From Adlercreutzia sp. ZJ304 (GTDB lineage Bacteria > Actinomycetota > Coriobacteriia > Coriobacteriales > Eggerthellaceae): 64,000 nucleotides of DNA. Where the stretch lies: assembly GCF_011039075.1 (NCBI RefSeq), contig NZ_JAAKEG010000010.1, positions 1 to 64,000 on the forward strand, written 5' to 3'. The stretch's first letter is position 1. Every line of letters begins with the position of its first letter. Below, piece after piece: positions 7,488-64,000 of this stretch. The notes beneath the pieces were generated by a model, which was given only the letters and a program-made list of their open reading frames with translations, was not told where the DNA came from and did not search any database. The position numbers were made by a program, and so were the translations under genes.

Positions 7488-7657
7488 TTAGGGTTCCGCC
7501 CCTTGCTGAAAGGATGAACCCACCATATAAGGTGGGTGTCCGCAGCGAACTTCCTGGCTTTCGTATCAACGGACACGAATCCCCATTTCATTCGCAATCT
7601 AGGACTCCCTTTTTAAAAGCATCGGTCCATCGCGAAAATGGCAGGAGCGGAACCTAT
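7488..7657. ncRNA. Candidate structured RNA between clpB and pknB (strand unresolved)
   Basis: GGTTCCGC (7492-7499) pairs with GCGGAACC (7647-7654), closing a domain with internal hairpins: ACCCACC/GGTGGGT (7518-7537), GTCCG/CGGAC (7538-7574), CGAAT/ATTCG (7576-7594) and TTCGC.../...GCGAA (7591-7636). No reading frame fits. On the plus strand it would be a clpB 3' UTR ended by the terminator at 7670; on the minus strand TATACT sits about 7 nt before the closing stem. It does not match 6S, SRP, tmRNA or RNase P RNA by eye. Confidence 0.45.
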
Positions 7658-60810: not shown

Positions 60811-61111
60811 TGTAAAAAGCCCAGCTGCGCAAATTCGCACGCAAGAAGTTGACGATTTACTGCGCGTGTTGGCTACTATAGACGATCCGGATAAGGTGTT
60901 CGAGTTATTGGAAGATTTGTTCACCATTCGGGAAATACGCGAAACCTCGCAGCGCTTAGCTGTTGCGCACTTGTTAGACGCGGGCAAATCGTATGCTGCC
61001 ATAGAAAAAGAAACGGGCGCATCGGCAACTACCATAGCGCGTGTATCTAAGTGTTTGACATATGGTTCTGGCGGCTATCGCGCTGCGCTAGATGTGCTGG
61101 CGGAAAACTAA
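60803..61111 (+). CDS. TrpR-like YerC/YecD family DNA-binding protein
   Basis: 102 residues; helical Trp-repressor fold with EVDDLLRVLATIDDPDKVFELLEDLFTIREI, the HTH AHLLDAGKSYAAIEKETGASATTIARVSKCL and GSGGYRAAL. Starts inside the end of cimA (8-nt overlap). Possible regulator; ligand unknown. Confidence 0.9.
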   Translation: MADVKSPAAQIRTQEVDDLLRVLATIDDPDKVFELLEDLFTIREIRETSQRLAVAHLLDAGKSYAAIEKETGASATTIARVSKCLTYGSGGYRAALDVLAEN

Positions 61112-61794
61112 GCGTAGTCTTGAGGCGTTAGCGGCTGCTGGGGCAGCGGCTCTTCGGGCAGCTTCGATTTCAAATCCCATATACGTTTCACCATTTCCAA
61201 AATAAGCTGCGCGCGCGTGCCTATGAGGTCGCTATTTTTCGCCAAGAAATCAGCCACTTCAGAATAATGGAGGGTAAAACTTTCTATGAGTTCTCCGCGT
61301 TCGGGCTGTGGCGTTTCGTCTTGCAGCGCTCGCGCAAGAACAACCTGTACATTTTCTTCGGTAAGCCCGGTTGACGAATAGCCCGATTGCGGCAGAACTG
61401 TTATTGCTGCATCGCCTAGCTTGTCGTTCAGGCGGCATCCAACCTCTTCGAGCAATTCGCGTTGCGCGCATTGCGCTATTGTCTCGTCTGGTTCCATAAG
61501 ACCTGCAGGAAAAGAAATGCACCAAGCGTTCAGTGGATAGCGAAATTCTCTTATGAGCAAAATGGTATCGTTTGGAAGAAGCGGAACAATACATACCGCA
61601 TCTGGCTTGGTATGTTTTCCCGCGCCATTTGCTTTAAGTGCTGCTTCGTACTCGTTCAATCCGCGCCGTGAAGCGGCTTCGTATTCATACGTTGATCCAT
61701 CTGCCAAACGATAGGTTAGCACGTATTTATTAACCCATCCGCTGCATATTTGCTCTATGTGTTCTAGTTTTGGGGTTGCTAGTTTGTTCGTCAT
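61108..61794 (-). CDS. NUDIX hydrolase (ADP-ribose pyrophosphatase-like)
   Basis: 228 residues with the Nudix box GLMEPDETIAQCAQRELLEEVG, G-x5-E-x7-RELLEEVG. Preceded by an Arg/Glu-rich beta region typical of ADP-ribose pyrophosphatases. Convergent with the TrpR-like gene (4-nt overlap); start overlaps the upstream oxidase stop. Confidence 0.9.
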   Translation of the reverse strand: MTNKLATPKLEHIEQICSGWVNKYVLTYRLADGSTYEYEAASRRGLNEYEAALKANGAGKHTKPDAVCIVPLLPNDTILLIREFRYPLNAWCISFPAGLMEPDETIAQCAQRELLEEVGCRLNDKLGDAAITVLPQSGYSSTGLTEENVQVVLARALQDETPQPERGELIESFTLHYSEVADFLAKNSDLIGTRAQLILEMVKRIWDLKSKLPEEPLPQQPLTPQDYA

Positions 61795-62282
61795 TTTGAT
61801 AGTCTCCTGCCACCTTTTGCGCGTACTTCATCAAATGCAACTTCCCATATATCAGTGTCATTTATTTCGCGCTCTATTGCTGGTCCTATTTCGTGTTTTA
61901 ACTCGGGCATGTATTTCATGCAAAGCGCCACCAATGCCTGACGCACTTGTACTATATCTTCTACGCGATGAATTTGCCCGCTAGCTATAACAGAGGCAAA
62001 GCGGCTAGTGAAGAAAGTGTCTTCAAAACAAGGTTCTACCTCGGTTGCAACTGTAACGCTAACGCGGGGGTCGTGGTGCCAGTTGTCTAGTTTATGTCCA
62101 TAAGTATTTGTGGTGTGAACATACAATTTTTTGTCCATCATTACATACGACATGGGAACGCCATAAGGTGTTCCGTCTTCATCAACTGTAGATATAACGC
62201 AGTATTCGCCAGCATCTAAGATGCGCCACGCTTCTTCTGTATCTAATTCGCGCTCGGCAATACGCATTGCATACTTTTTCAT
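61791..62282 (-). CDS. Pyridoxamine 5'-phosphate oxidase family (FMN-binding) protein
   Basis: 163 residues with the split-barrel FMN fold, of the NimA/pyridoxamine-oxidase-like type: EAWRILDAGEYCVISTVDEDGTPYGVPMSYV and HKLDNWHHDPRVSVTV. Substrate unknown. Upstream of the Nudix gene with a 4-nt ATGA overlap. Confidence 0.88.
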   Translation of the reverse strand: MKKYAMRIAERELDTEEAWRILDAGEYCVISTVDEDGTPYGVPMSYVMMDKKLYVHTTNTYGHKLDNWHHDPRVSVTVATEVEPCFEDTFFTSRFASVIASGQIHRVEDIVQVRQALVALCMKYMPELKHEIGPAIEREINDTDIWEVAFDEVRAKGGRRLSK

Positions 62283-62395: not shown

Positions 62396-62560
62396 AAAAA
62401 ATTGTGAGGTGGCTTACGTAAGCCACCTCACAACAGTGGATGCCGGGGGTAAGCATCCTTGGAAGCCTAGGGACGGAGACTTCCATGTTGCGGAAGATGA
62501 GGGCATCTTCCTTAGGGAGAAAGGAGGAAGAGAACTTCCGTGTTGCATTGCATACTACAC
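62396..62560 (-). ncRNA. Candidate small RNA with anti-Shine-Dalgarno-like core
   Basis: On the minus strand a run of four hairpins (62526-62539, 62492-62511, 62461-62484, 62438-62458; each starts GGAAG or GGATGC) ends in a perfect 32-bp palindrome (62402-62433) followed by TTTTTT, an excellent terminator. Loops are C-rich (CCCT, CTCCGTCCC, TTACCCCCG), and CCTCCTTTCT (62518-62527), identical to the conserved 16S rRNA 3' tail, lies between the first two hairpins. 5' end not located. No protein is encoded. On the plus strand the same region reads as an ideal AGAAAGGAGG. Confidence 0.6.
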
Positions 62561-62711: not shown

Positions 62712-64000
62712 TTAAATATTGCGCAGGAATGCCTCGTAGCCGCGCACGGCTTCGTAAATATCAGCTTTACTGGTTACTTCCCAAGGGCTGTGCATGCTAA
62801 GCACGGCGACACCGCTATCTATTACATCCATTCCGAAGCGTGCGGGTATGAAAGCTATTGTTCCGCCGCCGCCCGCATCAACTCTACCCAGTTCAGCGGT
62901 TTGGAAACTAACATTTGCATCGTCCATAACGCGTCGCAGGCGCGCTACAAATTCGGCGCGGGCATCGTTGCTGCCCGATTTTCCGCGCGCACCAGTGTAT
63001 TTATTGAACACCAAACCGTGTCCTAAATAGGCGGAATTTTTTGGTTCGAAAACACTTGCGTAAGCCGGATCGACACCTGCTGATACATCTGACGACAACA
63101 TTCTGGAAGCGGCTAATGCGCGTCGCAGTTTTAACTGACCGCTTTCGCCTGCAAGTTCCATTATTTCGGCGATAGTGTTTTCAAAAAACGCCGACTCCAT
63201 GCCTGTAGCGCCTACGCTGCCAATTTCCTCTTTGTCTACCAGCACGCAAACAGCAGTTTTTTCCGGCGCTGCATCGTCTGCCAATTCCAACTGGGCACGC
63301 AGCGATGTGTAGGCGCAAACGCGGTCGTCTTGCCCGTATCCAATAATCATGCTTCGATCAAAGCCCATTTCGCGGGCTGCGCCTGCAGGCACTACTTCAA
63401 GTTCGGCAGAAAGAAAATCTTCCTCTTCTATTTCGTATTTTTCGCGCAGAATATTAAGCAAGAATGCTTTAACAGGCTCTTTTTCTTCCTCGTTTTGGTT
63501 GGCTTCACATCTATTCCCAACAAGAATATCTAAGTCTTCACCTTCTATAACTTCCGAACCTTTTTTCTCCATTTGCTTTTGCCCTAAATGCGGCAAAAGA
63601 TCGGTTACGCAAAAAACAGGATCGTGCGGGTCTTCGCCAATAACTACCGGCATTACACTACCGTCGGTTTTCGCCACTACACCGTGTATGGCAAGCGGCA
63701 GCGCCACCCACTGATACTTTTTTATGCCGCCGTAATAGTGCGTGTCAAGCAAAGCGAAGTCGTCCTTTTCATAGAGGGGGTTTTGCTTTATGTCTAGCCG
63801 CGGCGAATCAATATGCGCACCCAATATATTCATGCCGTGCTCTATGGGCTGTTCGCCTATGTGTACAAGCACGATAGCCTTATTCTGGGAAGTTGCCCAT
63901 ACTTTGTCGCCGGATTTCAGTTTGCGACCTGCTTTTAGTGCATCTGAGAGCGCCATATAACCAGCTTTTTCGGCTAGTTTTACAGCGCGTGCGCAGCATT
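62712..64000 (-). CDS. M18 family aminopeptidase, N-terminus cut by the window edge
   Basis: Zinc aminopeptidase of the aspartyl-aminopeptidase (M18) family. The open frame runs to the right edge (...ARAVKLAEKAGY before the first internal Met), so about 30-60 N-terminal residues are missing. Zinc-ligand motifs visible: GAHIDSPRLDIKQNP, VLVDKEEIGSVGATG and LSMHSPWEV at the C-terminus, with SNDARAEFVARLRRV in between. Cytosolic peptide degradation is expected. Confidence 0.92.
   Translation of the reverse strand, partial: CCARAVKLAEKAGYMALSDALKAGRKLKSGDKVWATSQNKAIVLVHIGEQPIEHGMNILGAHIDSPRLDIKQNPLYEKDDFALLDTHYYGGIKKYQWVALPLAIHGVVAKTDGSVMPVVIGEDPHDPVFCVTDLLPHLGQKQMEKKGSEVIEGEDLDILVGNRCEANQNEEEKEPVKAFLLNILREKYEIEEEDFLSAELEVVPAGAAREMGFDRSMIIGYGQDDRVCAYTSLRAQLELADDAAPEKTAVCVLVDKEEIGSVGATGMESAFFENTIAEIMELAGESGQLKLRRALAASRMLSSDVSAGVDPAYASVFEPKNSAYLGHGLVFNKYTGARGKSGSNDARAEFVARLRRVMDDANVSFQTAELGRVDAGGGGTIAFIPARFGMDVIDSGVAVLSMHSPWEVTSKADIYEAVRGYEAFLRNI

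Follow-up and report, generated by a model that had tools for sequence, protein, structure and literature searches.

The 6C/B11 RNA folds into stable hairpins that expose C-rich loops, which pair redundantly with ribosome binding sites and repress (PMC10470900), and it is chaperone-independent according to the title of a 2019 NAR paper cited in the same work. The alpha-r14/NfeR1/cuckoo RNAs of Alphaproteobacteria carry several anti-Shine-Dalgarno hairpins that are redundant, Hfq-independent and diverged in their stems (PMC10746234), and the LhrC1-5 RNAs of Listeria use three redundant UCCC sites, placed one in a loop, one in a single-stranded linker and one in the loop of the terminator (PMC4132741). 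That such C/U-rich sites cover the Shine-Dalgarno sequence has been demonstrated experimentally for B11/6C (PMC10470900), LhrC (PMC4132741) and NfeR1 (PMC10746234). PmaR of Agrobacterium also contacts its targets through an accessible C-rich single-stranded loop, but consists of one spoon-like hairpin, mostly activates, and pairs away from the ribosome binding site (PMC6234868). For the Eggerthellaceae, which are common gut bacteria, a limited literature search found no described regulatory sRNA.

We analysed a window of 64,000 nt from Adlercreutzia sp. ZJ304 (contig NZ_JAAKEG010000010.1, positions 1 to 64,000). A preliminary description had proposed a minus-strand RNA with C-rich loops and linkers, closed by a perfect 32-bp palindrome and six T, and these elements were confirmed from sequence and fold. 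From 62539 to 62396 the minus strand consists of four hairpins followed by a terminator (Table 1). Its fold (-71.5 kcal/mol) has a z of -8.0 against dinucleotide shuffles, whereas the plus strand of the region folds less distinctly (z -5.0) and is without a terminator. The loops of hairpins 2, 3 and 4 are C-rich as described, but that of the terminator is ACGT. An intrinsic terminator is predicted on the minus strand only, with the stable hairpin and subsequent T run of an sRNA-type terminator at 62433-62396, which supports the minus strand as the encoding strand. We infer transcription of an RNA of ~149 nt, from a promoter near 62552 to this terminator. No good -35 for the putative -10 box and no consensus promoter were found in the window; -10-like sequences (TATACT, TATATT or TATAAT) stand shortly before the arrays of other genera. 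When we scanned the sampled sequence of G000, the window's genome (~0.9 Mb, somewhat under half of it), for stretches of 170 nt with three or more CCC-loop hairpins, the array locus was the sole instance, and the same scan picked up the homologue in the sister genome A. murintestinalis. A DNA operator palindrome was rejected, as the terminator hairpin is no DNA palindrome in G002, and so was a coding role, with no overlapping reading frame conserved and tblastn matches confined to short conserved segments. As a separate observation, the 12-mer GCATTGCATACT occurs twice, at 62264-62275 (the PNPOx gene start) and at 62545-62556 (across the putative -10), which may be chance.

Table 1 Features of the array and neighbouring genes in the window (hairpins are written 5' arm-loop-3' arm).
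Feature	Position	Strand	Basis or remark
M18-type aminopeptidase gene, upstream of the array	62712..63956	(-)	Also a neighbour in G031
Putative -10 box TAGTAT	62552..62557	(-)	Aligns with TAAGAT of A. murintestinalis; predicted start near 62544
Hairpin 1, GGAAG-TTCT-CTTCC (RNA GGAAG-UUCU-CUUCC)	62539-62526	(-)	Sequence and fold
CU-rich segment with CCUCCUUUCU, the 16S 3' end	62512..62527	(-)	16S comparison; CTTCCTCCTTT shared with A. murintestinalis
Linker TCCTTTCTCCCTAA after hairpin 1	62525-62512	(-)	Sequence
Hairpin 2, GGAAGATG-CCCT-CATCTTCC, loop CCCU	62511-62492	(-)	Sequence and fold
Hairpin 3, TGGAAGTCT-CCGTCCCT-AGGCTTCCA, loop CCGUCCCU	62485-62460	(-)	Sequence and fold
Hairpin 4, GGATGCT-TACCCCC-GGCATCC, loop UACCCCC	62458-62438	(-)	Sequence and fold
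Terminator palindrome TTGTGAGGTGGCTTAC/GTAAGCCACCTCACAA, perfect 32 bp	62433-62402	(-)	Self-match on opposite strand over 32 bp
TTTTTT run ending the terminator	62401-62396	(-)	Sequence; whole intrinsic terminator 62396..62433
PNPOx-like gene, downstream of the array	61791..62282	(-)	Array upstream of it in 3/3 genus genomes
NUDIX hydrolase-like gene, syntenic anchor in other genera	61108..61794	(-)	Named from sequence motifs

The array is best regarded as a new family of RNA whose functional kind is already known: by analogy it appears to work like 6C/B11, LhrC and NfeR1, and it matches none of them by the sequence tests that mark their members. The suggested likeness to C-rich sRNAs of Gram-positive bacteria holds in that the proposed working design is like that of 6C/B11 and LhrC, but does not extend to homology by sequence. 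6C RNA/B11 (RF01066) belongs to the same phylum, Actinomycetota, and exposes C-rich loops on hairpins as the array does. However, 6C has two C-loop hairpins with C runs, whereas the window has three C-rich loops of 3 to 5 C (CCCU, CCGUCCCU and UACCCCC) plus a CU-rich linker, relatives of the window array have up to six C-loop hairpins, and the genomic neighbours of 6C (PMC9569102) differ from those of the array. The RF01066 model gave no match in the window, nor in G000-G002 at E<=10, in a search in which the Corynebacterium glutamicum control itself fell below the cut-off. The alpha-r14/NfeR1/cuckoo RNAs have in common with the array a multi-hairpin, redundant anti-Shine-Dalgarno design and, as proposed below, Hfq independence; their ultraconserved CCUCCUCCC, which lies unpaired in each of three hairpins, is absent from the window sequence, and the nearest loops are UUCCUCCUCCUU in G109 and UCCUCCCCAC in G031. 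LhrC has five genomic copies whereas one copy of the array was seen, and UCCC occurs in the window linker and hairpin 3 loop but is missing from the terminator loop, where LhrC has it. Unlike the window, relatives in the genera numbered g5, g17, g25 and g30 have a C-rich last hairpin; no sequence homology of LhrC to the array appeared in the Rfam scan. PmaR resembles the array in its C-rich loop but is a single hairpin instead of several. Rfam is without a family for the array, giving no match to it in the window or at the loci of 11 relatives, and plasmid and phage collections likewise held no match.

The preliminary description had stressed an exact mimic of the 16S rRNA 3' end lying in a linker. 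The identity stands: CCTCCTTTCT at 62527-62518 (-) is the 3' end of the same genome's 16S gene, which ends GGATCACCTCCTTTCT. Its first two bases sit in the 3' arm of hairpin 1, so the 10-mer is not wholly linker. It occurs three times in the genome (in 16S, antisense to the Shine-Dalgarno sequence of an nrfH-like gene, and in the array), and its reversed control likewise occurs three times; identity to 16S is therefore by itself no evidence. The family keeps a CU-rich anti-Shine-Dalgarno composition, not the 10-mer, and the emphasis on an exact mimic is weaker than claimed. In predicted folds, the relatives do not all keep the 16S-like segment accessible: most of CUCCUUU in A. murintestinalis is predicted to pair within hairpin 1, with AAAGGGAG as partner and UUCCCUUC left as loop, and the anti-Shine-Dalgarno segment is predicted to be partly paired in g14.

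The observation of the array is nevertheless upheld, because it is conservation and not 10-mer identity that supports it. All three genus genomes, namely G000, G001 (the sister genome Adlercreutzia murintestinalis DSM 112345) and G002, whose contig stops inside the element, have the array upstream of the PNPOx-like gene. Within the 430-nt intergenic region, resemblance to A. murintestinalis is confined to the array and the surroundings of the putative -10. CTTCCTCCTTT is identical between the two, the C-rich loops are retained and the stems are compensated, and CGTCCCTAGG of hairpin 3 is identical in G001 and G002. In A. murintestinalis the hairpin 1 stem remains possible, with one A-U pair changed to G-U, though another pairing is favoured there. 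In an alignment of three rows, both partners are altered in one pair of hairpin 3 and in two pairs of hairpin 4; the A. murintestinalis row of this alignment was joined manually, with its extra hairpins and one base of the linker removed, a treatment that favours the structure. These additional C-loop hairpins have loops that include GACCC and ACATCCCA. In G001 and G002 a terminator hairpin stands at the corresponding place, and within the genus a strong T run is seen in the window's species only. The comparison with relatives proposed at the outset came out in support of the array: C-rich loops and linker are retained in relatives while stems vary, the contrary outcome of unconserved loops being absent, and pairs changed on both sides occur within the genus and in two further genera. 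In G001 and G002 a second GGTTTCC downstream of hairpin 3 is an alternative partner, a possible two-fold switch (L035 2030-2095, L036 17-75).

Members outside the genus were found by synteny, by locating the NUDIX gene across the family and inspecting the sequence upstream of it, and not by model. The genus covariance model, built from three sequences (R1), found nothing beyond the genus among 138 Eggerthellaceae genomes, weak R1 matches elsewhere lacked such an array, exact patterns matched the genus only, and a general two-hairpin model was dropped because it misaligned the repeats. What links the members in other genera is position and design; their sequences are not alignable. In G031, from another genus, the M18-NUDIX interval contains an array with CUCCUCCUUC as first loop, further C-rich hairpins and a long last hairpin whose loop is AUCCCCCUUG; the fold has a z of -7.0. 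The region downstream of M18 was rejected as a general locus, since among the flanks inspected only the window and G031 have an array there; in A. murintestinalis the M18 gene is located elsewhere. Upstream of NUDIX there are arrays, or else CU-rich segments accompanied by C-loop hairpins, in genera g30, g25, g5, g17, g14, g21 and g64, plus g1, those of g21 and g64, which follow a small-heat-shock-like gene, being the least certain.

Using a detector that was tuned after the first examples and that counts, over 170 nt, both CU runs and hairpin loops rich in C/U, we found at least three C-rich elements on the gene's strand, in the same orientation, in 15 of 70 NUDIX-upstream regions (seven genera), a count in which same-genus species are not independent and a CU run overlapping a hairpin loop may count twice. 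The opposite strand of these regions gave 0/70, and control regions downstream of M18 gave 0/45 on either strand. Pairs altered on both sides number four in G031/G109 and three in g5, and an unpaired CU-rich segment is identical across four g5 species. Unpaired bases in the predicted folds of 14 members are 47% C, 33% U and 5% G, and stems are 30% C and 33% G. Two further elements were seen in these regions. A GGTTAC ... GGGGTAAC element, perhaps a transcription-factor site, lies upstream of arrays in genus g5 and in G026 (L186, L188, L192, L209, L185), with GTAACCGCCAGGTTAC also present upstream of the G026 array, and downstream of M18 in G005 (L135) there are long perfect hairpins that carry GGGAC(A/T)GTCCC around the loop and may be a repeat element.

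The retention of C/U-rich loops, together with stems that drift with compensation and hairpins that are gained and lost, suggests redundant sites. We consider that the array is probably a trans-acting sRNA that does not depend on Hfq and whose anti-Shine-Dalgarno sites are redundant. Its stable hairpins would present several short unpaired C-rich segments along with the CU-rich segment matching the 16S tail; any of these could then pair with mRNAs at their G-rich Shine-Dalgarno region and keep ribosomes from binding, and both steps would proceed without Hfq, for which a Pfam search with working controls gave no match in the genus. In 84% of 601 sampled genes the linker pairs more strongly with the start region than with internal sequence, but the choice of start regions depended in part on Shine-Dalgarno strength, and shuffling the linker with its composition kept leaves the pairing nearly as good, so the result shows compatibility and not specificity. 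The C-rich loops hardly favour start regions. We can only infer the direction of regulation, because the C-rich loop of PmaR can activate and pair off the ribosome binding site; the C-rich loops of the array could also activate. It is quite unlikely that the array is a multivalent RNA, so far of this bacterial family only, in which C-loop cassettes are gained and lost and which competes globally with the 16S tail for the Shine-Dalgarno sequences of many mRNAs, not few targets.

The array is invariably upstream of NUDIX or PNPOx-NUDIX and in the same orientation, as would be expected of a cis-acting leader or attenuator of these genes in which array and terminator in the 5' region govern read-through. 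In the window, however, a strong terminator separates the array from the gene, and the gap between them is 114 nt versus ~400 nt in A. murintestinalis, with unconserved sequence. A -10-like TATAAT follows the terminator in some relatives, and the PNPOx start region ranks 263/601 for pairing with the linker. We regard a leader as unlikely. Titration of an RNA-binding protein by the C-rich loops (a KH-domain or cold-shock protein, for example), with no mRNA pairing, is very unlikely: short loops repeated over a variable number of hairpins would suit a sponge, but they look like anti-Shine-Dalgarno sequence and not like a single fixed protein motif. CsrA, the classic sponge target, is moreover absent (PF02599, 3/3 genus genomes, positive controls detected), and its GGA motif would sit on the opposite strand; a CsrB/RsmY-type CsrA sponge on the plus strand was rejected, as no CsrA is encoded.

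That the array has no regulatory role, being transcription-termination clutter or a DNA-level repeat with incidental C-rich loops, would fit the chance frequency of the CCTCCTTTCT 10-mer alone, and the g21 and g64 examples after the small-heat-shock-like stop codon could be terminators with C-rich loops. Against this stand the strand asymmetry of 15:0, the empty control flanks (0/45), which include ordinary terminators, the compensatory pairs, and the unpaired CU-rich segment identical in four g5 species, and we find this reading highly improbable.

If the array is indeed a trans-acting sRNA with redundant sites, it would be a riboregulator that can be studied readily in gut Actinomycetota lacking Hfq, and would suggest that C-loop anti-Shine-Dalgarno RNAs arose more than once. 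The arrays of its relatives form a natural series in C-loop hairpin number, suited to asking whether site number sets regulatory strength. Elsewhere in the window, a 6S/SsrS RNA was matched at 7489-7656 (-), scoring 50.7 bits, just over the Rfam gathering score of 46.4 bits.
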